A DNA stretch of 18,867 nucleotides from an uncultured Gilliamella sp. Its GTDB lineage: Bacteria > Pseudomonadota > Gammaproteobacteria > Enterobacterales > Enterobacteriaceae. Position numbers and translations under genes: made by a program. The stretch is from the NCBI GenBank assembly GCA_945291235.1, contig CALYQY010000042.1:1-18867 (forward strand), written 5' to 3'. Positions within the stretch are counted from its first letter, which is position 1. Every line of letters starts with the position of its first letter. Below, in pieces: positions 1 through 12,766 of the stretch. The notes under the pieces are model-generated. The model was not told the origin of the DNA. It searched no databases and saw only the letters and a list, made by a program, of their open reading frames with translations.

Positions 1-308
1 AACTGAGAGAGGTTAGCACGCCAAACAGGGATGTTTGGCGAGGCGCTGCTTTGTCAGGAACAAATCAGCGTCGGTGCGTTAAAACCGAACGAAGGCGGAG
101 GGCAGTCGAAGACCGCTTTGGGCGGTGCTGCGAGGGGGTTATTAGGGGGATTTCGCATAAAATCCCCTTATTCGGACGCTGATACCGTATTGAAAATATC
201 GACTAATTAACAGCGTCCGAAACCAGCGGACTAAAAACCTGCAACTTTCAAAGAAAGTAAAAAACCTTGTCAAGAAGTTTCAGAAAACACCCACGTTTCA
301 GTATAAAA
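1..308. repeat. Structured dispersed repeat, copy A (left edge possibly cut by window)
   Basis: A GC-rich block that recurs at 839-1194 with only scattered differences over its first 240 bases. It can fold into a 9-bp hairpin (19-27 with 32-40, tetraloop GGGA), a hairpin around 143-170 and an 11-bp stem (171-181 with 211-221). It ends in an AT-rich tail with an AAACCTTG element near 261. Read on the minus strand, part of it could encode a short peptide, but this copy has an in-frame stop near position 54, so conservation of a protein is unlikely. I see no transposase and no clear terminal inverted repeats. Its nature is unknown: a structured RNA or a non-autonomous mobile repeat are both possible. 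The 335-601 CRISPR array follows directly. No gene is seen in 1-1302. Confidence 0.8.
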
Positions 309-334
309 ACAAACGTTTTAGATATTTCAAAAAT

Positions 335-601
335 ACCCTAAACCCCTTATGCAGCCATAAAAGGCTCTATCTTACGACAGACACATATGACTTTTTTTAA
401 ACGGCTTATGCAGCTGTAAAGCCAGCGTTGTTGATTTGCAAAAGAGCGTGAAATTTCTAAACAGCTTATGCAGCTTTCAAGCTTCAGCCTCCGCGCCCAT
501 TCCGGTGCAAGCTTTTCTAAACAGCTTATGCAGCTTTCAAGATTTAGAAAGTGGTTACAATCCGTATGCCATTTTTCTAAACAGCTTATGCAGCTTTCAA
601 G
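335..601 (-). CRISPR. Short CRISPR array, type I-F-like, five repeats and four spacers
   Basis: Three identical 28-bp repeats lie at 454-481, 514-541 and 574-601, separated by unrelated 32-bp spacers (482-513, 542-573), a 60-bp period. A diverged repeat at 394-421 follows spacer 422-453, and a more decayed one at 335-362 follows a 31-bp spacer. On the minus strand the repeat begins CTTGAAAGCTGC and ends TTTAGAAA. It divides as 5-nt handle, 5-nt arm, 5-nt loop (GCATA), 5-nt arm and 8-nt tail, the same partition as the canonical I-F repeat, and 28/32 spacing is the I-F norm. The arms differ from the usual CTGCC/GGCAG and pair over only four bases. Decay on the left and the tail sequence both indicate transcription leftward from a leader at 602 onward. 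No cas gene is present in this window, so the array is an orphan or is served from elsewhere. Confidence 0.92.
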
Positions 602-734
602 TAGAATCTCACATACTATAAACATCGTTTATAAAAACACAAAGGGCAATTTTAGGCTTAAAAACCCTTTTTTCTAACGCTTTTGCAATATATTGATTTT
701 TAATGGTTTTATTTTTAGCTAAAAAAAAGGGTTT
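602..734 (-). promoter_or_regulatory. CRISPR leader
   Basis: An AT-rich stretch directly next to the intact end of the array. It has an inverted pair, AAACCCTTTTTT (662-673) and AAAAAAGGGTTT (723-734), flanking an IHF-like site. Read leftward, a possible -10 (TATAGT, 620-615) with a weak -35 (TTTGTG, 643-638, 17-bp spacing) would start transcription a few bases before the first repeat. The leader assignment rests on its position at the non-decayed end. The promoter is a weaker call. Between 735 and 838 I see only AT-rich sequence with no gene. Confidence 0.7.
686..698 (-). promoter_or_regulatory. IHF-like site in the CRISPR leader
   Basis: The minus strand reads AATCAATATATTG, a full match to the IHF consensus WATCAA-N4-TTR. 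It lies 85-97 bp from the leader-proximal repeat. IHF bending of the leader is known to direct spacer integration in type I-E and I-F systems, so the position makes sense if the array is, or was, adaptation-competent. AT-rich DNA yields chance matches, so this is support rather than proof. Confidence 0.6.
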
Positions 735-838
735 AAAAAGTTAGTATTTTAAACACCACTACTATTTTTAAACCGCTTACCATTACCTTCCACAAAAGCA
801 AACAAATGCACCAACCCGCACCTTCACAAAGCGCCGAC

Positions 839-1194
839 AACTGAGTGAGGTTAGCACGCCAAACAAGGATGTTTGGCGAGGCGCTGCTTTGTCCGGAACA
901 AATCAGCGCCGGTGCGTTAAGACCGAACGAAGGCGGAGGGCAGTCGAAGACCGCTTTGGGTGGTGCTGCGAGGGGGTTATTAGGGGGATTTCGCATAAAA
1001 TCCCCCTAATTCGGACGCAGACACTGAACTGAAAATATCAATCAATTAACAGCGTCCGAAACCAGCGGATCAAAAAAATGTAACTTTTAATAAAAGTAAA
1101 AACCTTGTCAAAAAGTTTCAGAAAATATAGATGTTTAAGCAAAAAACACAAAACCTTGCCAAAAACTTTCAGAAAACACCCACGTTTAAGTATA
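839..1194. repeat. Structured dispersed repeat, copy B
   Basis: Second copy of the block at 1-308, offset by 838 bases. Its three inverted repeats are well kept: 857-865 with 870-878 (9 bp, loop AGGA), 979-991 with 998-1010 (13 bp, loop CGCATA, containing GGGGG/CCCCC), and 1010-1018 with 1052-1060 (9 bp, TTCGGACGC/GCGTCCGAA). The body is markedly GC-richer than the surrounding DNA. A minus-strand reading frame runs through it, but it is rich in Pro, Cys and Ala, has no convincing start signal and is broken in copy A. I treat the block as non-coding. Unlike copy A, its AT-rich tail is internally duplicated. Confidence 0.85.
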
Positions 1195-1201
1195 AAAAAG
1201 G
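1100..1201. repeat. Two tandem 51-bp tail units of repeat copy B
   Basis: Two adjacent units begin with AAACCTTG at 1100 and 1151, followed in each by a CAAAAA-[G/C]-TTTCAGAAAA element and then by GTTTAAG. Copy A has only one such unit (from about 261), so the tail has been duplicated in copy B or reduced in copy A. No gene is visible. Confidence 0.7.
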
Positions 1202-1771: not shown

Positions 1772-2776
1772 CTATTCATTTTTTGCTGACGTAAGCAAAT
1801 CGGTATCAATAGTTTGTTTACTCTCGCTTATTCCAAACTTTTTAGCCCAAATTGACGTAATAATTGGCACAACAACCGATGTCACAATCACACTGGTGGC
1901 AACCATAGCGGTAGCAGCGGATGCTACCGGGGCAAATTCCGGTACCATTTCGGCAATTAATAACGGTGTGGCAACCGCAGCCCCAGCCGAACTTGAGGCC
2001 GCCACCCCGGCGGTACCATTACCTTTACCTAAGAATTTGTCGGCTAAGATAAGCGGCACGCCGGTTATCACTATCACTAATAATCCTAATAAAATACCGG
2101 CTAAGCCTGTCTCAAAAATAACTTGCAGTTTGATGCTATTACCTAGCGCAAAGGCAAAAAACGGAATGAGAGTTTGCACAGCACTACCAAATAATTTGCG
2201 TAGATCGGAATCTAAATTGCCTAATAAAAAGCCAATTAGAAATGGCAACACCGCCCCGATAAATAGTCTAGGCTCGAATGAAGCCACGCCAGATGTCCCT
2301 AAAATCACCATTGTCATTAAAGGCCCTGACTCAAGAGACATAAGAACAAAAGCGCCGGCTTCTTCTTTGGTGCCATATTGATTCATCAGTGCGGCATATA
2401 ATCCGCCATTAGTCATATCCATTGAAGCAACTAAGGCAATAATTGAAAAACCGGCAAAGATGCCCCCTTCTACCATATAACCATTGGTCCAGAATGTGCC
2501 GGCAATCAGCGCAACGACCCAGGCTGTGGCAATTTTGGTCACCACTAAAACGCCGGATTTTCTTAACATCATGCCGGTCGCTTTCAGCTCTATCGATGCG
2601 CCCATACAGAAAAACCAAACAGCCAAAATAGGTACCGTTCCGGAGATTAAGCCATTGGTAAATGATCCTAAATATTTGCCCCCGCCGGGAAAAAAGGTAT
2701 TACATAATGCACCAAGAAACAGTGGGATCAGCATTAATCCACCGGGTACGCGATCTATAAATTTTTTTATTTTCAT
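1772..2776 (-). CDS. kdgT: 2-keto-3-deoxygluconate permease KdgT
   Basis: Inner-membrane symporter of the KdgT family that imports 2-keto-3-deoxygluconate or close sugar acids. From residue 1 ([13 protein letters not shown]) it follows E. coli KdgT closely: [68 protein letters not shown] and the Ser/Ala-rich [15 protein letters not shown]. About ten hydrophobic segments are visible and the length (334) suits the family (327 in E. coli). The frame is open for 92 more codons upstream, but that extension has no family resemblance. A GAGGA lies about 5 bp before the ATG at 2779 and 8 bp before the ATG at 2776; the latter matches the family start. It is divergent from the catabolic operon at 3262 and shares its regulatory region, including a CRP-like site and a palindrome. 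Family assignment is secure; the exact substrate could be another 3-deoxy-2-keto acid. Confidence 0.95.
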
Positions 2777-2864
2777 CATCCATTCCTCAAGAAAAATAAC
2801 CATATGATTTAAATATATTAATTTGTCTTTTCCGGCATACAGCCAAAGCAAATATAAAATATTC

Positions 2865-2877
2865 GGAATATCATTCC
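2865..2877. promoter_or_regulatory. Palindromic operator candidate upstream of kdgT
   Basis: GGAAT-ATC-ATTCC, a perfect 5+3+5 palindrome about 90 bp upstream of the kdgT start and just downstream of a possible leftward -10 (TTATAT, 2893-2888). The same half-sites occur at 3229-3241 before the divergent operon. The shape resembles IclR-family operators (IclR itself binds TGGAAA-type palindromes). Two IclR-family genes are encoded at 7629-9215, so one of them is the likely ligand. Confidence 0.65.
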
Positions 2878-2929
2878 TTTTTTGAACATATAAAATAACC
2901 AAAATAAAATCAATTTTGATTCGCCATTT

Positions 2930-2945
2930 TGTGATAAACATCACC
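2930..2945 (-). promoter_or_regulatory. CRP-like site for kdgT
   Basis: TGTGA-TAAACA-TCACC matches the CRP core TGTGA-N6-TCACA at nine of ten half-site positions. Its centre (2937.5) is 66.5 bp from the centre of the palindrome at 2865-2877, the same distance as for the site pair on the operon side. This suggests catabolite activation of kdgT. Confidence 0.7.
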
Positions 2946-3160
2946 AAATAAAAATTAACCACATGAATATCAATAATATTTTCATATTGATTTTCTAAAA
3001 ACGATCCAGAAAGGCAAAATAATGGCAACAGAAAATAACCGATTACGGACAATTAAATAAAAGGAGATAACGAGTTAATTCGACTGTAAAAGTCATATAA
3101 AAATCATAAATATAGTCTGGATTTTATTAATCTTTTTATTAAGTTAGCGTTTAAATATTC

Positions 3161-3176
3161 TGTGATGACGATCACA
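3161..3176 (+). promoter_or_regulatory. CRP-like site for the sugar-acid operon
   Basis: TGTGA-TGACGA-TCACA is a perfect match to the CRP half-sites. It lies about 86-101 bp upstream of the first gene of the operon. TATTAT at 3220-3225 is a possible -10, which would place the site near -61 to -63, the class I activation position. Confidence 0.8.
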
Positions 3177-3189
3177 TTATTCAATAAAT

Positions 3190-3202
3190 GAAATATCATT
3201 CT
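3190..3202. promoter_or_regulatory. Possible weaker third operator half-match
   Basis: GAAAT-ATC-ATTCT differs from the two perfect palindromes (2865-2877, 3229-3241) at an outer base on each side and has the same ATC centre as the kdgT copy. It falls between the CRP site and the presumed -10, so binding here could block polymerase. It is a tentative call. Confidence 0.35.
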
Positions 3203-3228
3203 TTAAATTTCTTAATTAATATTATTTC

Positions 3229-3241
3229 GGAATGCTATTCC
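3229..3241. promoter_or_regulatory. Palindromic operator candidate for the sugar-acid operon
   Basis: GGAAT-GCT-ATTCC, extended by one pair on each side (C3228 and G3242). It falls at the expected transcription start, just before the GAGG ribosome binding site of the first gene, a typical repressor position. Its centre is 66.5 bp from the CRP-like site centre. Confidence 0.65.
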
Positions 3242-3261
3242 GTTTTAATTGAGGTAAACAA

Positions 3262-4206
3262 ATGAAGATTTATATAACAGATTGTGATCATGAATCAATG
3301 GCGATAGAAAAAGCCATTTTTGCCGAGCAGGGAATCGATTTTGAGATACTTAACATTACTCAACCCGATGATATTGTTCGAGATTGTCAGGATGCTGATG
3401 CGCTGATTTTACAATATGCCACCATTTCAGATAAGGTTTTAAGTTCGTTAAAAAAATTAAAAGGCGTTGTCCGTTATGGCGTAGGGGTGAATACCATTGA
3501 TATACAGTCAGCAACCCAAAATAATGTTGCCGTTTGTAATGTGCCGGATTATGGCACCAATGAGGTTGCTGATCATGCTTTAGCTCTGATTATGGCTTTA
3601 GCCAGAAAATTGCCTTTACTCACTAGTGACACCAAAAATGCAATTTGGGCTTATGAAAAAGCGATACCTATTTACCGCTTACAAGAACAGACCGCCGGTA
3701 TTATTGGCTTAGGTCGAATAGGTTTATCGTTAGCGAAAAAATTGCATGGTATAGGTTTGAAGGTGATCGGTTTTGATCCGCTGGCAAAACAAGAAGATCT
3801 GCCTGATTTTATTGAAATTGTCAGCTTACAGACGCTGTTAAGCCAATCGGATATTATTTCACTCAATCTGCCACTAGTTAAACAGACCCAAAACTTGATT
3901 AGTCATCAAGAGTTTTCGATGATGAAAAAAAATTGCTATCTCGTTAACACTGCACGAGGCGGCATTGTCAATGAACAAGCGCTTTATCAAGCTTTAGTGA
4001 CAAACACTATTGCCGGCGCTGCGCTCGATGTGTTTGAGCAAGAGCCACCGACTGATAGGGCACTATTTGCACTCGATAACTTTATCGCGACCCCGCACGC
4101 TGCCTGGTATTCAGAGCAATCACAGCAAGATCTAAAACGCAAAGCCGCTCAAGAGGCGATTCGATTGGCGAAAGGTGAGCAGCCTTTGTATTGTTTAAAT
4201 CGATAA
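3262..4206 (+). CDS. D-2-hydroxyacid dehydrogenase family protein (CtBP-like)
   Basis: NAD(P)-dependent D-isomer-specific 2-hydroxyacid dehydrogenase, 314 residues, likely cytoplasmic. The nucleotide-binding motif GLGRIG lies at 149-154. The catalytic Arg is in NTARGG (R232), the Glu in DVFEQEP (E261) and the His in TPHAAW (H279). The substrate-side motif VVRYGVGVNTID is at about 69-80, and DYGTNEVADHALALI (about 96-110) recalls the C-terminal-binding-protein-like group often found in carbohydrate operons. GAGG lies seven bases before the ATG. It is the first gene of a five-gene operon with kdgK, so it probably reduces a 2-keto acid or oxidises a 2-hydroxy acid related to a sugar acid. Which one is not determinable here. 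A 26-bp gap separates it from the next gene. Confidence 0.9.
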   Translation: MKIYITDCDHESMAIEKAIFAEQGIDFEILNITQPDDIVRDCQDADALILQYATISDKVLSSLKKLKGVVRYGVGVNTIDIQSATQNNVAVCNVPDYGTNEVADHALALIMALARKLPLLTSDTKNAIWAYEKAIPIYRLQEQTAGIIGLGRIGLSLAKKLHGIGLKVIGFDPLAKQEDLPDFIEIVSLQTLLSQSDIISLNLPLVKQTQNLISHQEFSMMKKNCYLVNTARGGIVNEQALYQALVTNTIAGAALDVFEQEPPTDRALFALDNFIATPHAAWYSEQSQQDLKRKAAQEAIRLAKGEQPLYCLNR

Positions 4207-4232
4207 AATTTTAGCGCAGAAAGGATATAAAC

Positions 4233-5237
4233 ATGAAAGCAATCATATATAAAAGCCCAAATGAAGTGGTTTGTGAACAAATTGACAAGCCGGTTTTGAA
4301 CAACAATGAAGTCTTAATCAAAGTGAGCCATGCCGGCATTTGTGGATCGGATTTAAATATTTATCTGGGTGTTCATCCAAGAGCCAAAGCGCCATTAGTT
4401 ATGGGGCATGAGTTTTCCGGTTACATTGTTGACGGTGATGATCAGCTGCCGACCGGTACCAAAGTCTGCGTCCGTCCGCTTATCTCCTGCGGTCAGTGTA
4501 GCCCTTGTCAATCCGGAAACAGTCATGTTTGCCAAACACTAAAACTTTATGGCATTGATACCGCTGGCGGTATGGCTGAGTATGTCAAAGTCGATCGCCG
4601 GAAAGTGCATGTCTTGCCCGATAATATGCCTATGGATTTAGGAGCATTCGTCGAGCCACTGGCGGTCGGTATTCATGCGGTGTCAAGAACGCCATTTAAA
4701 ATCGGTGATTCGGTTGTGGTGTTTGGCGCCGGTACTATTGGGCTTTGTGTGGCAAGCGTTTTACAACACGCTGGCGCTAAACAAGTGATTGTCATTGAAA
4801 CGAATGATTTTCGCATTAATTTAGCCAAAGAGCTTGGTTTTACCGTGATTAATCCTAAACAAGAAGATGTGTTAAAAACGGTGTTAAACCTTACCCATAA
4901 TGTTGGTGCTGACATTGTTTATGACTGCGCAGCACATCCTCAAGTTGCTTTGCAATTAACCGATCTGGTTAAAGTGCAAGGTACTATCGAGATTGTCGGC
5001 TCTTATAAAAAACCGACCGAATTTAAGTTACTCGATATCGAATTTAAAGAACTTAATATTATCGGGACTCGAGTTTATCAGGCAAGAGATTTTGATACAG
5101 CGATTGCCTTGATAAATAAAGGTTTCCCCTATAAAAAACTATTAACTATATTGCCTCCGGAACAAGCCAAAGCAGGTTTTGCTAATGCATTAGTGGGCGA
5201 AAATGTGATTAAAACACTGTTTAAATTTAGTGATTAA
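4233..5237 (+). CDS. Zinc-dependent medium-chain alcohol dehydrogenase (sugar-acid/polyol type)
   Basis: A 334-residue MDR-family dehydrogenase. The GroES-like catalytic domain carries GICGSD (C37), the zinc motif GHE (H59, E60) and E141. The structural zinc site has four cysteines, C86, C89, C92 and C100. The Rossmann motif GAGTIG is at 165-170. All ligand residues are present, so it should be active. It resembles the group with L-galactonate, L-idonate, threonine and galactitol-1-phosphate dehydrogenases rather than ethanol dehydrogenases. AAAGGA lies seven bases before the ATG. In this operon it is a plausible oxidase for a secondary hydroxyl (such as C5) of a sugar acid, paired with the KduD-like reductase that follows 29 bp later. 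That substrate idea comes from context only. Confidence 0.92.
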   Translation: MKAIIYKSPNEVVCEQIDKPVLNNNEVLIKVSHAGICGSDLNIYLGVHPRAKAPLVMGHEFSGYIVDGDDQLPTGTKVCVRPLISCGQCSPCQSGNSHVCQTLKLYGIDTAGGMAEYVKVDRRKVHVLPDNMPMDLGAFVEPLAVGIHAVSRTPFKIGDSVVVFGAGTIGLCVASVLQHAGAKQVIVIETNDFRINLAKELGFTVINPKQEDVLKTVLNLTHNVGADIVYDCAAHPQVALQLTDLVKVQGTIEIVGSYKKPTEFKLLDIEFKELNIIGTRVYQARDFDTAIALINKGFPYKKLLTILPPEQAKAGFANALVGENVIKTLFKFSD

Positions 5238-5266
5238 TTACGCAAAATTTATTAAGGAATATGATG

Positions 5267-6028
5267 ATGAAAAATAAAAATCCCTTTGATTTAACAGGCA
5301 AAAATGCCATTGTAACCGGTGCTTCTCGTGGTATTGGAAAATCGTTAGCGCTCAGTTTGGCCAACGCCGGGGCAAATATTATTATTATTGATGTTTGCCG
5401 TGATGAACAAACCGAACAAGAAATAAAAAGCTATCAAGTATCGTGTGAAACGTTTATTTTTGATTTGGCAAACTTTGAACAGTACCAAAGCTTAATTTCA
5501 ACCATTATCGAAAAATATCAACATATTGATATATTGATCAATAATGCCGGCATTCAACGGCGTCACCCTGCTGCGACCTTCCCTAAAGCGGATTGGGATC
5601 TTGTGATTGATATCAATATGAATGCGGTATTTTTTATGTGCCAACAAGTTGGCCGGCATATGTTAGAACGAGGCTACGGTAAAATTGTCAATATTGCCTC
5701 GTTACTTGCCTTTCAAGGGGGATTCACTATCCCGGCTTATACCGCAGCGAAGTCGGCGGTGTCTGGCTTTTCTAAATCGTTATCCAATGAGTGGGCATCA
5801 AAAGGGATCACCATTAACTGTATTGCACCGGGTTATATTGCCACTGAAATGAATACTGCATTAATGAATGATGAAACCCGTAACCGTCAAATCTTAGAAC
5901 GTATCCCCGCTGGGCGCTGGGGCGATCCGCAAGATTTGGGCGGCGCAGCGGTGTTTTTATCATCTTCAGCTTCTGATTATATTAATGGATTTACCTTGGC
6001 CGTTGACGGTGGTTGGTTAGGTCGATAA
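5267..6028 (+). CDS. kduD: KduD / gluconate 5-dehydrogenase-like short-chain dehydrogenase
   Basis: Classical SDR of about 253 residues, the same length as E. coli KduD. Visible motifs (numbered from the third Met) are the cofactor loop GASRGIG near 18-24, NNAG near 92-95, catalytic Ser in NIAS (about 145) and YTAAK (Tyr about 158, Lys about 162). The C-terminal stretch with RIPAGRWG, FLSSSASDYINGF and AVDGGWL closely follows KduD, which interconverts 2-keto-3-deoxygluconate and its 2,5-diketo form. Three in-frame ATGs lie at 5261, 5264 and 5267. The AGGA at 5255-5258 is 2, 5 or 8 bases from them, so the last or middle is the better start. Operon partner kdgK supports a KDG-forming role. Gluconate 5-dehydrogenase activity is the main alternative. 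Confidence 0.85.
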   Translation: MKNKNPFDLTGKNAIVTGASRGIGKSLALSLANAGANIIIIDVCRDEQTEQEIKSYQVSCETFIFDLANFEQYQSLISTIIEKYQHIDILINNAGIQRRHPAATFPKADWDLVIDINMNAVFFMCQQVGRHMLERGYGKIVNIASLLAFQGGFTIPAYTAAKSAVSGFSKSLSNEWASKGITINCIAPGYIATEMNTALMNDETRNRQILERIPAGRWGDPQDLGGAAVFLSSSASDYINGFTLAVDGGWLGR

Positions 6029-6571
<543 letters not shown>

Positions 6572-6587
6572 TCGGTTATTTATTGAA

Positions 6588-6625
6588 GAAATATCACCGA
6601 ACCAAATAAAGATTTGGTGTATTTC
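6588..6625 (+). other. Intercistronic hairpin before kdgK
   Basis: ACCAAAT/ATTTGGT (6601-6607 with 6612-6618) forms a 7-bp stem. A competing longer pairing, GAAATATCACC (6588-6598) with GGTGTATTTC (6616-6625), has one bulge. There is no U-tract after it, so it is not a classic terminator. It may act in mRNA processing, stability or partial attenuation of kdgK. Confidence 0.45.
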
Positions 6626-6649
6626 AAAGGTAACAAATAAGGACACATG

Positions 6650-7600
6650 ATGACAATAAATATAGCCGTAATTGGCGAATGTATGATTGAACTGTCGATT
6701 AAAGGCAACGTAACCAACAGAAGTTTTGGCGGGGATACTTTAAATACGGCAACTTATCTAGCCCGGTTGTTGGCGAATAATCAAGCCAATATTCACTATG
6801 TGACAGCACTAGGCAGCGATCCTTTTAGCCAAGAGATGTTACAGCAATGGCAACAAGAGCGAATCGACACTCAGCTTATCCAACAAATCGATAATAAAAT
6901 GCCAGGTTTATATGCCATTGTGACCGATGATTGTGGGGAGCGTTCATTCTATTATTGGCGCAATGATGCAGCAGCAAAATTCTGGCTTAAAACAGCGCAA
7001 ACCGCCTCGATTTGCCAGCAAATTGCTACCTTTGATTATATCTATTTAAGTGGCATCAGTATTGCGATTCTTGATGAGCATAGCATCGACAGGCTGATCG
7101 AGCTTTTAGAAAGCTTTAAAGCCAATGGCGGTAAAGTGATTTTTGATAATAACTATCGCCCTCGACTATGGCGCACTCAAGAGTATGCAAAAAACGTCTA
7201 TTCAAAAATCTTGTCTTATACCGATATCGCATTTTTAACTCAAGATGATGAAACCCTGCTTTGGGGAGATAATGATTATCAAGATAGTATTTTGCGCAGT
7301 CAAAAACTCGGCATCAGTGAAATCATTATTAAACGGGGCAGCGAAAGTTGTATTGTCGTCACCGATAAGGAGCGAGTCGAGTTACCGGCTAATGTGATTG
7401 CTCAACAAAATATTGTGGATACCACAGCGGCTGGAGATTCGTTTAGTGCCGGCTACTTATCTGTCAGGCTGACGGGCGGATCGATTCAAGCGGCGATTAA
7501 GCAAGGGCACGATCTGGCTGGCGAAGTGATTCAGCACCGTGGCGCAATTATCCCTTCTTGTGCCATGCGTCATTTAACATTAATGCCAAATACTCTATGA
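6650..7600 (+). CDS. kdgK: 2-keto-3-deoxygluconate kinase KdgK
   Basis: PfkB-family sugar kinase that phosphorylates 2-keto-3-deoxygluconate to KDPG. It matches E. coli KdgK along its whole length (about 316 versus 309 residues): IAVIGECMIELS at the start, FGGDTLNTATYLAR, HYVTALGSDPFSQEML, YYWRNDAAAKFWL, YLSGISIAIL, GGKVIFDNNYRPRLW, and the anion-hole/catalytic DTTAAGDSFSAGYL near the C terminus. ATGs lie at 6647 and 6650; AAGGA (6639-6643) is 3 and 6 bases away, so 6650 fits better and also matches the family start. It is the last gene of the operon. The KDPG product needs an Eda aldolase, which is not in this window. KdgK anchors the functional reading of the whole cluster. Confidence 0.96.
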   Translation: MTINIAVIGECMIELSIKGNVTNRSFGGDTLNTATYLARLLANNQANIHYVTALGSDPFSQEMLQQWQQERIDTQLIQQIDNKMPGLYAIVTDDCGERSFYYWRNDAAAKFWLKTAQTASICQQIATFDYIYLSGISIAILDEHSIDRLIELLESFKANGGKVIFDNNYRPRLWRTQEYAKNVYSKILSYTDIAFLTQDDETLLWGDNDYQDSILRSQKLGISEIIIKRGSESCIVVTDKERVELPANVIAQQNIVDTTAAGDSFSAGYLSVRLTGGSIQAAIKQGHDLAGEVIQHRGAIIPSCAMRHLTLMPNTL

Positions 7601-7608
7601 TGCGCATC

Positions 7609-7646
7609 ATATCCTCATCACCCTATGTTTATGATGATGAGGGTAT
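7609..7646. terminator. Stem-loop between convergent kdgK and IclR gene
   Basis: A 12-bp stem (7609-7620 with 7635-7646, one G-U pair) around CCTCATCA/TGATGAGG. It begins eight bases after the kdgK stop and overlaps the last codons of the leftward IclR gene. Neither side has a convincing U-tract, so it is a weak or factor-assisted convergent terminator at best. Confidence 0.45.
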
Positions 7647-8399
7647 ATAGCCTAATCGACGGGAAATTGCGTTAGTTGTCTCTTGCAATAAACAGGCACA
7701 CTTTTCTATCTGATTTTGCATGCGATGACTAGGGCCTGCAATACTTAATGCCGCCACCACATCATTACTATAATTGAAAATACCGGATGCAACGCAGACT
7801 AATCCCTCTTCAACCTCTTCCCAATCGTAAGCGATATTTTCCTGCCGAACTGTAGTTAATAGTTGATTGAGTTTATTGGGGTCAGTGATGGTTTTTGCGG
7901 TATATTGCGGTAAAGGGGAATGTAAAATACGGTCAATTTCTTCGGCCGATTGGTGAGCAAGTAATATACGACCTAAGCCGGTGCAGTATGCTGGTCGCAT
8001 ATGCCCTAAATTTGAGCTGGTATGAATGGCGTTATTCCCTTCGCTTTTATATAAATAAACCACATTTCCACTATTGTAAACGCCTAAAAAACAGGTCTCA
8101 TTAATGGTGTTCGATAGTGATTTTACAAAAGGGATAACCACATCAACAATATTAACATTGACTAAACTTGATATGCCTAACTCTAACGATTTAAAACCTA
8201 AAGTGTACTTTTCTGATTTGGCATCATAAAACACATACTCTCTATCAAGTAAGGTTTTTAAAATCTTTTTTATTATCATTTTATTGAGTTTTGTTGCGCC
8301 AATCATTTGGTTAATGGTGACACCTGCTGCGCAATCACTAATCACATCTAACACAGCAATGGCTTTATCAATTGCTGAAGTTGTCTCTTTTTGGGTCAT
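7629..8399 (-). CDS. IclR-family transcriptional regulator 1 (KdgR-like)
   Basis: A 256-residue IclR-family regulator. An N-terminal winged helix-turn-helix spans about residues 10-65 (GVTINQMIGATKLN then KKILKTLLDREYVFY). A GAF-like effector domain follows, with family landmarks LGFKSLELG, NETCFLGVYNSGNVVYLYK, YCTGLGRILLAHQ and EEVEEGLVCVASGIF. The recognition helix is unusual: it lacks the common S-T-V-x-R and has NKMIIKKI instead. AAAGG lies eight bases before the ATG. It is a paralogue of the adjacent gene at 8454-9215 and converges on kdgK. Family members of this kind sense sugar acids such as KDG and repress transport and catabolic genes, so the palindromes at 2865 and 3229 are candidate targets. 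Which regulator binds them cannot be told. Confidence 0.9.
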   Translation of the reverse strand: MTQKETTSAIDKAIAVLDVISDCAAGVTINQMIGATKLNKMIIKKILKTLLDREYVFYDAKSEKYTLGFKSLELGISSLVNVNIVDVVIPFVKSLSNTINETCFLGVYNSGNVVYLYKSEGNNAIHTSSNLGHMRPAYCTGLGRILLAHQSAEEIDRILHSPLPQYTAKTITDPNKLNQLLTTVRQENIAYDWEEVEEGLVCVASGIFNYSNDVVAALSIAGPSHRMQNQIEKCACLLQETTNAISRRLGYIPSSS

Positions 8400-8453
8400 G
8401 ATAATAAGCCTTTACAATATAGGGTAGCTATAAATTTACTCTATAGCCGTAAG

Positions 8454-9215
8454 TTAATTTTTCTTCTTTAATTCAACGGATATCGATGCGGCAATATTTT
8501 TCAGTTCATGAATAATCATTGCCTTTTTCTGGATTATTCGAAATGAAGAGCCGGCAACGCTGATTGCTCCAACCACCTTATTTTGTTTAATAAAGATTGG
8601 AACAGCAATGCAGGTTAATCCCTCTTCTACTTCTTCATCATCCATTGAGTAACCGTCGATGCACACTTTAGCTAAACTGTTGTGTATGGCTTCACGATCA
8701 ACAACCGTTTTACTGGTGAATTGAACCAATGGGCGACTTAACACCTTGTTAATTTCAACTAATGGTTGATAGGCTAATAATGCTTTTCCTAAACCGGTGC
8801 AGTATACCGGCATTCGACTACCAATATGGGAGTTAGTTTTAACCGCCAGCTCACCTTCAGCTTTGTATAAATAAATCACACTGCCGTCATGATATACCGC
8901 TAAAAAACAGGTTTCGTTGAGTATTGCAGCCAGCTTTTTTAAAAAAGGAATCGATACCCCAACTAAAGAGATATTCATTAATCCTTTAACACCTAATTGA
9001 AAGGCTTTGACATCTAAAAAATATTTTTCTGTGGCAGCGTCATAACTCAGATACTGTCTTTTTTTTAATATATCTAAGATTCTAAATACCGTGGTTTTTG
9101 CCATTCGACTGAGTTTAACAATTTCTGCCAGCGAAATCCCCGAAGAATAATGGCTAATAATTTCGAGCAACGTTAGGGCATTATCTAAAGTGGATTGCTG
9201 TTTTTGAGATGACAT
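8454..9215 (-). CDS. IclR-family transcriptional regulator 2 (KdgR-like)
   Basis: A 253-residue IclR-family regulator. The winged helix-turn-helix is at about 10-62 and has the standard pattern GISLAEIVKLSRMAKTTVFRIL. The effector domain carries LDVKAFQLG, NETCFLAVYHDGSVIYLYK, PVYCTGLGKALLAYQ and EEVEEGLTCIAVPIF. It is clearly paralogous to the downstream gene at 7629-8399, probably from a tandem duplication. GGAG lies eight bases before the ATG. Only 54 bp separate the two genes; they may be cotranscribed, although AAAGG before the second gene and a short GCTATA/TATAGC inverted repeat (8427-8447) leave room for separate control. Its more typical recognition helix makes it the better candidate for binding the GGAAT-N3-ATTCC palindromes. 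This is an inference. Confidence 0.92.
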   Translation of the reverse strand: MSSQKQQSTLDNALTLLEIISHYSSGISLAEIVKLSRMAKTTVFRILDILKKRQYLSYDAATEKYFLDVKAFQLGVKGLMNISLVGVSIPFLKKLAAILNETCFLAVYHDGSVIYLYKAEGELAVKTNSHIGSRMPVYCTGLGKALLAYQPLVEINKVLSRPLVQFTSKTVVDREAIHNSLAKVCIDGYSMDDEEVEEGLTCIAVPIFIKQNKVVGAISVAGSSFRIIQKKAMIIHELKNIAASISVELKKKN

Positions 9216-9597: not shown

Positions 9598-10794
9598 TTG
9601 TTAAAGTACATTAAACTGAAATACCTATTAATAGCGATCATCGTTTTTGTCGTTATTTATGTTGCAAAATTAATCCTTTCCCCTTCGCAATCCACCGTTA
9701 ACTACATTACTTCCCCGGTTATTAAAGGAAACGTCGAAAAAACCGTGCTTGCCGACGGCACTATCAGCGCTTTCAAACAAGTCAGCGTAGGTGCTCAAGT
9801 TTCAGGGCAGATAAAAAAGCTGTATGTGGAATTAGGTGATGAGATTAAGCAAGGCGATATGATAGCTGAGATTGATGATCTTAAACAGAGCAATGATCTT
9901 AAACAATCTGAAGCAAAGCTAAATAGTTTAGAGGCGCAGCGCACATCAAAGCAAGCCAAATTAGTCAATTATCAGCTTACTTATGAGCGCCAACTTAAGT
10001 TAGTGAAAAAAGGGGTGGGTGCACAGGCGGATTTAGATTCGTCAAAAGCCGATCTCGATGCAATTAAAGCCGATATTGCTGCACTTGATGCCGATATTGT
10101 TAGTGCGCAAGTCGCCGTTGATACCGCTAAAGTCAACTTAGGTTATACCAAAATCCGCTCACCAATTGACGGCGTTATCGTCGCCATTCCGGTTGATGAA
10201 GGACAAACCGTCAACTCAGTACAAAGTGCGCCGACCATTGTTAAAGTCGCTCAACTGGATAAAATGACGATCGAAGCGCAAATTTCAGAAGCCGATGTCA
10301 TTAATGTTAAAAAAGGAATGCCGGTTTATTTTACTATTTTAGGGCAACCAAATAAGCGGTTTGACGGGCTAACATTAAGAGCCATTCAACCGGCGCCCGA
10401 ATCAATCAATAGTGAGAGTTCTTTAGCTACAAGCGCTTCATCTTCATCATCAAAAACGGCAATTTACTACAATGGGCTGTTTGATGTTGATAATCCCGAA
10501 CATATTTTACGCATTTCGATGACAGCGCAAGTCTACATTGTACTGGCTGAAGCGAAAGATGTGCTATCAATTCCGTCTCAAGCCATTGTACAGACTTTAG
10601 CAGACAATAAAGCAATTGTTTACCTGCTAAATAGCGATAACACTGTTGAAGAGCGACAAGTCACTTTAGGGATAAATAATAATGTGAGTGTCGAAATTCA
10701 ATCCGGACTTAAAGAGGGTGAGATTGTGATAGTGAGTAGTACCAATGGCTCGCAATTTAGTCCTAACGGGCGATCACCAAGGATAAAATTCTAA
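9598..10794 (+). CDS. macA: Macrolide efflux periplasmic adaptor MacA
   Basis: Membrane-fusion adaptor that links the MacB transporter to a TolC-type outer-membrane channel. A membrane anchor is at about residues 8-27 and there is no lipobox. A biotinyl-lipoyl half-motif with [11 protein letters not shown] follows (about 62-72), then an alpha-helical hairpin (about 95-180, Lys/Gln/Ala-rich), the second lipoyl half ([12 protein letters not shown]), a beta-barrel with [11 protein letters not shown], and MTAQVYI with a membrane-proximal end. The length of 398 exceeds E. coli MacA (371), partly through a Ser-rich insert near 280-290. The start is TTG: an in-frame TGA sits at 9589-9591, no earlier start exists, and AAGGA (9584-9588) is nine bases before it. 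It sits one base upstream of macB's ATG region, so the pair is an operon. It exports macrolides, haem precursors or toxins in relatives. Confidence 0.92.
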
Positions 10795-10795
10795 T

Positions 10796-12766
10796 ATGAC
10801 TAATTATCCTAATCCGCTTATTAAACTGGAGAAGATCACTCGGCAATTCCCGGCTGGCGATTCAACAATTGAGGTATTAAAAGGGATTGATTTAACCATT
10901 AATGCCGGTGAAATGGTGGCGATTATTGGTGCGTCAGGCTCCGGTAAATCAACATTAATGAATATTCTGGGTTGTTTAGATAAGCCAACCAGTGGTACCT
11001 ATACCATTGGCAATCGCACCACCAGCAAGCTATCACCCGACGAATTAGCCGAATTACGACGGGAACATTTCGGCTTTATTTTTCAGCGATATCATCTATT
11101 AAACGCCTTAACCGCACAAGGCAATGTTGAAATTCCGGCAATCTACGCTGGCATGACAGCAGATCAGCGCCAAACTCGCGCTAAAGATATTTTGACTCGT
11201 TTAGGTCTGGCGGAAAAAATCAATAACAAACCTAACCAATTATCCGGCGGTCAGCAACAACGTGTCAGTATTGGGCGGGCTTTAATTAATGGCGGGCAAA
11301 TTATTCTGGCCGATGAGCCAACCGGTGCATTAGACCGTAAAAGTGGCACCGAAGTAATGGCTATTTTACGTGAACTTCATCAACAAGGTCATACGGTAAT
11401 TATTGTCACCCACGATAACAATATTGCTCAAAGCGCCGAACGTATTATTGAAATTAGTGACGGCAATATTATTTCCGATGCGATTAATCCTAATTATCAA
11501 ACCGAACAAGGGAGTCATCGTCAGGTAAAACAGATCGAAATTACCAAAACGCAAGACAATCTACGTGCCAAATACTATCGTTTTCGTGATGCATTTAAAA
11601 TGGCGTTACTTTCTATGGCATCACAACGCTTACGAACTTTTCTCACCATGCTCGGCATTATCATTGGTATTGCTTCAGTTGTTTCTATGGTGGCATTAGG
11701 GCAAGGTACCAAACAAAAGATTTTAGCCAATATCAACTCGTTAGGCACCAGCACGTTAGAAATTTATGCCGGAAGTGGATTTGGTGATCGTAATGCTGAC
11801 AAAATTACCACGCTCAGATCTGCCGATGCTGACTTTTTGGCAAAACAAAGTTTTGTGCATAGCACCACACCGAATTTAGCAACAAGTGCCTATTTTCGTA
11901 TCAATAATTTGGCCGTGACCGGAACGGTAAATGGTGTTGGAGAGCAGTTTTTTGCGGTGCGAGGCTACACTATCAGCAAAGGGATTGCTTTCGATAAGCA
12001 GAGCGTGGATACCTCTGCGCAAGATGCCGTGATTGATGAAAATACCGTTAAACGACTATTTACCAATCAAGACCCGATTGGCAAAATTTTAATTGTCGGA
12101 CAATTGCCGGTTAGGATCATCGGGGTTGCTACCAAACAGCAACAAGGTTTTGGCAATAACGAAAGTTTAAATATTTGGCTCCCTTATACCACCGTTATTA
12201 ATCGTATGGTCGGTCAAACGTCTTTAAAGAGTATTACCGTTCGTGTAAATGATAATGTTGATTTATCAATTGCCGAAAAAGCTATCGAAAACATCATGTT
12301 ACAACGGCATGGTAGTAAAGATTTCTTTATTTTCAATTCAGATAGCATACGGGAAACCGTCAATTCGTCAGCCTGGGTGTTAACACTTTTAATTTCAACC
12401 ATTGCTTTAATTTCGTTAGTGGTTGGTGGAATTGGTGTGATGAATATTATGTTGGTGTCTGTAACAGAAAGAACCCGTGAAATTGGGGTAAGAATGGCTG
12501 TCGGTGCTCGCTCAAGTGATATTTTGCAACAATTTTTAATTGAGGCAGTATTAGTTTGCCTAATTGGTGGCGCTTTAGGGATCTTATTGTCGTTTGTAAT
12601 TGGTTTTATTTTTAACTATTTCGTGACTTCATTTGCAATGAGTTTTTCTATTGCTTCTATTATTGCTGCATTTAGCTGTTCAAGCGTCATTGGCGTTATT
12701 TTTGGCTATTTCCCGGCTAAACGAGCGGCAAAACTTGATCCTATTTACGCTTTAGAACGTGAATAG
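10796..12766 (+). CDS. macB: Macrolide export ABC transporter MacB
   Basis: Inner-membrane ABC transporter with fused nucleotide-binding and membrane domains, 656 residues (E. coli 648). The ATPase has Walker [10 protein letters not shown] (about 45-53), signature LSGGQQQR, Walker [13 protein letters not shown] and the VTHD switch His. The FtsX/MacB-type membrane part starts with a helix at [23 protein letters not shown], then a large periplasmic domain, then three more helices with [21 protein letters not shown] in the first and ending in [18 protein letters not shown]. It works by mechanotransmission with MacA and a TolC channel. The ATG is one base after the macA stop; AAGGA is 12 bases away, so translational coupling is likely. 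No TolC gene is in the window. Confidence 0.95.

Follow-up and report, generated by a model that had tools for sequence, protein, structure and literature searches.

The CRISPR (clustered regularly interspaced short palindromic repeats) array near one end of an 18,867-nt stretch from an uncultured Gilliamella sp. (contig CALYQY010000042.1 of assembly GCA_945291235.1; this whole stretch is called the window here) is, judged from its sequence and that of its relatives, a type I-F array and not a separate subtype. Our analysis indicates that it is probably a bona fide, recently used array of this strain, expected to be used in trans by one chromosomal I-F operon, and that its leader and array would have been captured once by a satellite repeat and amplified before the copies gained spacers independently. 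The array runs on the minus strand from 601 to 335 and comprises five 28-nt repeats and four spacers (32, 32, 32 and 31 nt) that bear no mutual resemblance. The 28-bp repeats, spacers of about 32 bp, 60-bp period and partition of the repeat into handle, arm, loop, arm and tail described in the original prediction were all reproduced. The I-F subtype, which it also proposed, is borne out by the complete cas operon of the nearest relative, a 5'-CC protospacer adjacent motif (PAM) and the likeness, at the level of repeats, of one array of that relative to ICP1 phage records, in addition to the 28-nt repeats, spacers of about 32 nt and TTAGAAA-type repeat tail of the window itself.

The nearest genome, G001, is 98.8% identical to the window across 18,090 bases and carries a single complete I-F operon at 2.05 Mb of contig C1 (Cas1f, Cas2-3f, a 107-amino-acid protein, Csy1, Csy2, Csy3 and Csy4/Cas6f). 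Six of its Cas proteins each score above their own NCBIfam cut-off, and one Cas6f match was found in the genome. The counterpart of the window array lies at 0.06 Mb on the same 2.81-Mb contig. The search for cas1, cas2-3 and cas6f that the original prediction called for thus returned a complete set in this relative, the genome in which it was made. The earlier statement that no cas gene occurs within 18 kb agrees with our scan, in which no Cas model stands among the NCBIfam matches listed for 19 of the 25 window open reading frames (ORFs) of at least 80 amino acids (for three proteins, the best 25 families); of the six other ORFs, two had no Pfam match. The suggestion of an orphan or relic array finds no support, as near-identical G001 has cas genes on the same chromosome and the shared locus has different spacers except the terminal one. 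The window array is probably no orphan, and we infer a cas operon in its own strain from G001. The Cas7f of G001 is 81-83% identical to five Gilliamella-titled records; it reaches 77% with a further such record and with a Frischella one, and 64% or less with other genera, on which grounds we assign the genus as Gilliamella. When the third G001 array stretch was compared with phages, 47 of the 58 matching records were ICP1-group Vibrio phages with 69-75% identity over the repeats, and two ICP1 records carry the annotation 'CRISPR-Cas locus' where the G001 array matches. The altered repeat stem could point instead to a separate CRISPR subtype or an I-F3 CRISPR-associated transposon array, which is very improbable given that the G001 operon encodes Cas1f and Cas2-3f beside Csy1-4 (a statement on the cas set only, Tn7-like genes not having been searched); I-F3 systems are not known to carry cas1 and cas2-3. 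The type I-F array of the window resembles type I-F1 systems in its 28-nt repeat, 32-nt spacers, G20 before an 8-nt tail, full cas set, CC PAM and leader-end acquisition, and the Gilliamella systems differ from these in a basal pair that is often A.G and in up to 21 short arrays per cas operon.

When 136 spacers were compared with 16 stretches of phage or prophage, ten distinct spacers, including window spacer 3, matched at six or fewer mismatches. For seven of the ten the 5'-CC is exactly in place, for one the CC lies a single base off and for two it is absent, and a control of one shuffle per spacer per stretch gave no match. Because the 16 stretches were pre-selected, some by having matches and others by a phage protein, the evidence lies in the PAM fraction and not in the hit rate. 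The screen of relatives covered 43 of 138 inter-repeat intervals (the window's four and the leader-proximal ones) in 40 relatives with at most nine regions scored per genome, and the target counts are lower bounds. Window spacer 3 targets the F/G region of Mu-like Gilliamella prophages with four mismatches and a 5'-CC, at a site that has a gene for virion morphogenesis on one side and a Mu F-like gene on the other, and its core occurs in one IMG/VR contig. The spacer search proposed in the original prediction thus succeeded for spacer 3, found no phage or plasmid target for spacers 1 and 2, and returned no plasmid match for the array as a whole. The whole-repeat pattern was absent from IMG/VR and from the genome contig collection. 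The phage search covered three G001 stretches (the arrays of L041, L044, L045 and L046 and part of L043 lay outside it), of which two array stretches had no match in the phage collection. A 27-nt match to a Listeria phage in INPHARED (E 0.3) overlaps the repeat edge and was set aside as chance, as were 11 short matches (E 0.09-0.3) of the third G001 stretch to Staphylococcus, Flavobacterium, Escherichia and Salmonella phages. A 60-bp tandem repeat that is no CRISPR at all would account for a period of exactly 60, a reading we regard as practically refuted by the protospacers and opposed also by the unrelated spacers, the PAM flanking the phage targets, the cas genes, the leader and the polarity of the array.

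The minus-strand orientation of the array, the leader on its higher-coordinate side and the satellite copies that flank both were missed in the original prediction. Array-free satellite units are tandem and 455-457 bp long, and the composite unit consists of a satellite unit of about 457 bp interrupted at one fixed point by leader and array. At this point composite units have the leader and array, preceded by a stretch like the 3' half of a repeat and followed by the 5' half of one, and array-free units run straight through; the site was uninterrupted in the 16 array-free units seen in G001. The terminal repeat that appears degenerate is a chimera, half CRISPR repeat and half satellite. G001 holds 21 arrays at eight loci and 35 copies of a 37-nt satellite marker, 19 of them directly upstream of an array and 16 elsewhere. 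The upstream satellite-leader junction is found at 19 of the 21 arrays, the exceptions being 2048146, which is cas-adjacent, and 1645462, which has other DNA upstream; the downstream chimeric terminal repeat with satellite tail is likewise found at 19 (exceptions 1642740 and 2047330), and both junctions are present in the window. Because the same two junctions recur in most arrays, this shared pair argues for a single capture, as far as sequence comparison can tell. We propose that the satellite would once have taken up a fragment of leader and array whose break lay midway through a repeat, and that the composite unit would then have multiplied in tandem and spread to eight loci as the satellite itself does. 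The repeats of each copy would subsequently have diverged and new spacers would have been added to it independently, often leaving the inherited terminal spacer as the only one still in common. The array would be processed and served in trans by a single I-F cas operon located at another place on the chromosome.

At three or fewer mismatches the satellite marker occurs in five genomes out of 40 examined, with 35 copies in G001, 10 in G023 and one or two in the three others. Diverged relatives of the satellite are present in more genomes (DNA searches that scored at most nine to ten candidate regions per genome), and in this form it is nearly confined to this lineage. Its mobility is what we infer from this distribution. 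It is possible, if less likely, that the arrays multiplied by unequal recombination or segmental duplication with the satellite as a bystander that supplied flanking homology. The tandem clusters do have direct repeats of about 300 bp on each side, and L045 has a cluster of three arrays, of which two are 99% identical in their upstream flanks and the third 93-94%, as such a process might leave them. The same satellite-array junctions at eight separate loci, and the satellite at array-free loci as well, speak for capture by the satellite. In G006 (L207:579-2566) a CRISPR array has as its neighbour a tandem satellite of 392 bp that is akin to part of the G001 satellite.

The spacers record a history of copying and renewal. 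The terminal window spacer 4 recurs at the corresponding locus of G001, where it is 32 nt long, and mutated forms of it are leader-distal in four further G001 arrays. The window and its G001 locus have the terminal spacer in common and differ in their other spacers, save for a copy of spacer 3 within a 483-nt segment. Strains that are 98.8% identical thus share a terminal spacer and otherwise differ, which indicates recent turnover at the locus. Across arrays, 26 of the 31 pairs of similar spacers (eight or fewer differences) join one leader-distal spacer with another, and these leader-distal cases form three spacer families. Such leader-distal sharing fits arrays that would have been duplicated first and have gained spacers at the leader end afterwards. 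In many G001 arrays one repeat variant makes up most of the copies, and this variant differs from array to array. The array scan has two weak spots, in that the last spacer and repeat of array 1707751 were missed and the first repeat at 1645462 is doubtful. A reading of the arrays as relics in decay, whose transcription and extension have ceased, is improbable. Short arrays, diverged distal repeats and some G001 repeats with only three or four stem pairs would suit such decay, as would G026, a genome assessed as 100% complete, with five leader-repeat junctions and no Cas6f match (other cas genes were not searched there), whose arrays have perhaps outlasted their cas genes. Opposed to this are the complete cas operon in near-identical G001, the identical leader-proximal repeats of the window, the different spacers of two close strains at the same locus and the near-duplicate arrays at 1708701 and 1709651, which differ at the leader-proximal spacer.

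The 483-nt segment is a phage sequence at the window's locus in G001 (L041:2137-2619), set between two intact repeats like a giant spacer. It contains a Phage_tail_S (Pfam) reading frame, its relatives adjoin a Mu F-like gene and it holds the exact spacer 3 copy after CC. Recombination of two spacers with a phage was considered as its origin and rejected, as the last 32 nt are preceded by CG and not CC. Its uptake as one long prespacer is a candidate origin that the left end does not bear out, since this end reads TC and not CC in all six homologues from phages or prophages; some of these six may be one phage.

Beyond G001, a census of leader-repeat junctions across 60 genomes found at least one in 24 of 35 genomes of the genus, none in the other 11 and none in the 25 genomes outside it, and a reversed control pattern found none in all 60. 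Patterns biased towards G001-like repeats gave no match in G033 and G006, where the leader did match, and the count was therefore based on the leader. G001 has 20 junctions, G031 12, G006 11, G033 nine, G014 seven and the other nineteen genomes one to six; the single match in G016 has three mismatches and may be chance. The census asks for one leader type and is therefore a lower bound (G021 and G036, the latter of another genus of the family, have arrays and no junction), and tandem copies may be merged into one in draft assemblies. The leader-array units scattered through G033 are homologous in leader and array only, with no satellite flank, which points to a second route of spread; L181, L183 and L184 of this genome each have a leader and seemingly a single well-formed repeat, as short or nearly empty arrays that are dispersed. 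Taken more broadly, the evidence tilts modestly towards CRISPR memory having been mobilised inside the chromosome: the satellite would have captured a leader-array once and been copied to eight loci, so that one I-F operon would have about twenty sites at which spacers are gained independently, with selection for a foldable stem acting on their diverging repeats, and elsewhere the leader-repeat unit would itself be a dispersed element, even as a leader with one good repeat. This suggests that banks of immune memory can spread as passengers of repetitive DNA.

The window repeat consists of a 5-nt handle, the arms and loop AAGCT / GCATA / AGCTG and the 8-nt tail TTTAGAAA; the basal position of the stem is A.G, and the other four positions are paired. 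The original prediction was right that the arms pair over four bases and that the diverged repeat regains a C-G closing pair and loses an inner one. The canonical I-F hairpin has five pairs with C-G at the base, which is canonical and not defining, and Cas6f cuts after G20. In 25 repeat types from Gilliamella and Frischella, hand-picked before the census, 87% of stem cells are paired; the second pair occurs as C-G, A-U, U-A, G-C and G-U, and the fifth as U-A and C-G. In these types 28 cells are changed on both sides, a number reached by none of 500 shuffles (9.5 ± 3.3) and by no slid version, and the covariation score of 0.512 exceeds all 500 shuffles and compares with at most 0.155 when slid. 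The basal pair is C-G in 12 of the types and open in 13. Among the 61 distinct leader-adjacent repeats from the census, the pairs from base to loop are intact in 32, 57, 59, 60 and 61, the basal pair being open in 29 (28 A.G and one C.C). G20 is retained in 25 of 25 and 60 of 61 types, and the open basal pair occurs in cas-adjacent arrays too. Because the inner pairs are either kept or altered in both arms together, the odd stem appears, on this comparative evidence, to be a drifting yet maintained hairpin, and it is a trait of the genus and not peculiar to the window array. The earlier idea of a lineage-specific stem that Cas6f would tolerate stands in so far as the altered stem is widespread, and falls in so far as it set this array apart.

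Several results weigh against the reading of a recently used I-F array captured with a satellite. Two of the ten matched spacers have no CC, and searches of phages, plasmids, IMG/VR (first 20 nt) and the relatives' genomes gave no target for spacers 1 and 2 of the window. The cas operon of the window's own strain is predicted from G001. Two of the five stem measures applied to the 25 types do not stand out from shuffles, namely the number of pairs with a double change (three, reached by 45 of 500) and the number of further pair types (seven, reached by 391 of 500). Taken by itself, the window repeat folds no better than its shuffles (-4.8 kcal/mol, z -0.40; canonical repeat, -8.6 kcal/mol, z -2.71). 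Shared terminal spacers suit any duplication, not only a satellite-borne one, and the units of G033 mean that satellite capture cannot account for all array spread in the genus. No target-site duplications were seen by eye at the loci.

REP, ERIC and BOX elements are dispersed repeats of bacteria. The satellite resembles them in being non-coding, palindrome-containing and both dispersed and tandem, and differs from them in that, in G001, a CRISPR leader and array follow immediately on 19 of its 35 marker copies. Within Gilliamella, junctions of repeats with one leader type number between 0 and 20 per genome and form a natural series, in which duplications can be ordered by shared terminal spacers and G001 offers parallel repeat variants with one Cas6f match, so that array origin, Cas6f tolerance and the value of many acquisition sites become testable in a bee-gut commensal. 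Genomes with several arrays per cas locus have been described, with a shared last spacer as a sign of common ancestry and definitive empirical evidence for a benefit of many arrays per cas locus stated to be lacking (PMC12814883, examined passages); satellite-borne arrays do not appear in those passages. No account of CRISPR arrays carried by a satellite, or of numerous I-F arrays in Gilliamella, stood among the open-licence titles and abstracts listed.

Table 1. Features of the array and its surroundings (window positions unless a locus is named).
Feature	Position	Strand	
Repeat 1, leader-proximal, CTTGAAAGCTGCATAAGCTGTTTAGAAA	574..601	-	
Spacer 1, 32 nt; first 20 nt without exact IMG/VR match	542..573	-	
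Repeat 2, same as repeat 1	514..541	-	
Spacer 2, 32 nt; first 20 nt without exact IMG/VR match	482..513	-	
Repeat 3, same as repeat 1	454..481	-	
Spacer 3, 32 nt; CC-flanked protospacer in Mu-like Gilliamella prophages; exact copy in G001 483-nt segment	422..453	-	
Repeat 4, diverged, CTTTACAGCTGCATAAGCCGTTTAAAAA	394..421	-	
Spacer 4, terminal, 31 nt; recurs in G001	363..393	-	
Terminal repeat, chimeric: 5' part CRISPR repeat, 3' part satellite, GGGGTTTAGGGT	335..362	-	
Leader; last ~130 nt conserved beside I-F arrays of other Gilliamella	602..765	-	
Remnant like repeat 3' half at satellite/leader junction, TAAGCGGTTTAAAAAT	764..779	-	
Satellite unit upstream of leader; 92% identical to array-free G001 unit	778..1197	-	
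Tail of interrupted satellite unit and next unit downstream of array, ended by window edge	1..338	-	
Mini-array loci, cas2-3/csy1 gap	L046 7582-7497; L063 2983-3064; L065 from 2964; L066 2989-3073; L067 3002-3093; L068 3007-3098; L141 2920-3008	minus (L046)	

The gap between cas2-3 and csy1 holds a two-repeat mini-array whose spacer part-matches a CC-flanked site 77-105 nt downstream. None of 500 shuffles matched as well in five of the seven loci, 12 of 500 did so in L141 and L065 is without a good site; L064, the eighth operon scanned, has no mini-array repeat. From its sequence the mini-array looks like a crRNA-like (CRISPR RNA-like) autoregulator of the cas operon. Shmakov et al. reportedly described cas-regulating crRNA-like mini-arrays in 2023, and ours resemble those in having two diverged repeats in the cas operon and a part-matching CC-flanked site just downstream; they lie in the cas operons of the same system, with none in the window. 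The 107-amino-acid protein between cas2-3 and csy1 (L046:6957-7280, minus strand) has no family, and L065 and L066 each have an ORF that agrees with it in length and location. L067, from a record titled Frischella japonica, has I-F cas genes as well as an array; the Frischella genomes studied in PMC12586679 are described there as having no CRISPR systems.

In the remainder of the window, an Rfam scan of which gave no match, positions 1772-9215 hold a sugar-acid catabolism cluster (KdgT, KduD-like and KdgK) with two neighbouring IclR/KdgR-type regulators. Positions 9598-12766 encode a MacA/MacB-like efflux pair that scores under the curated cut-offs of both models.
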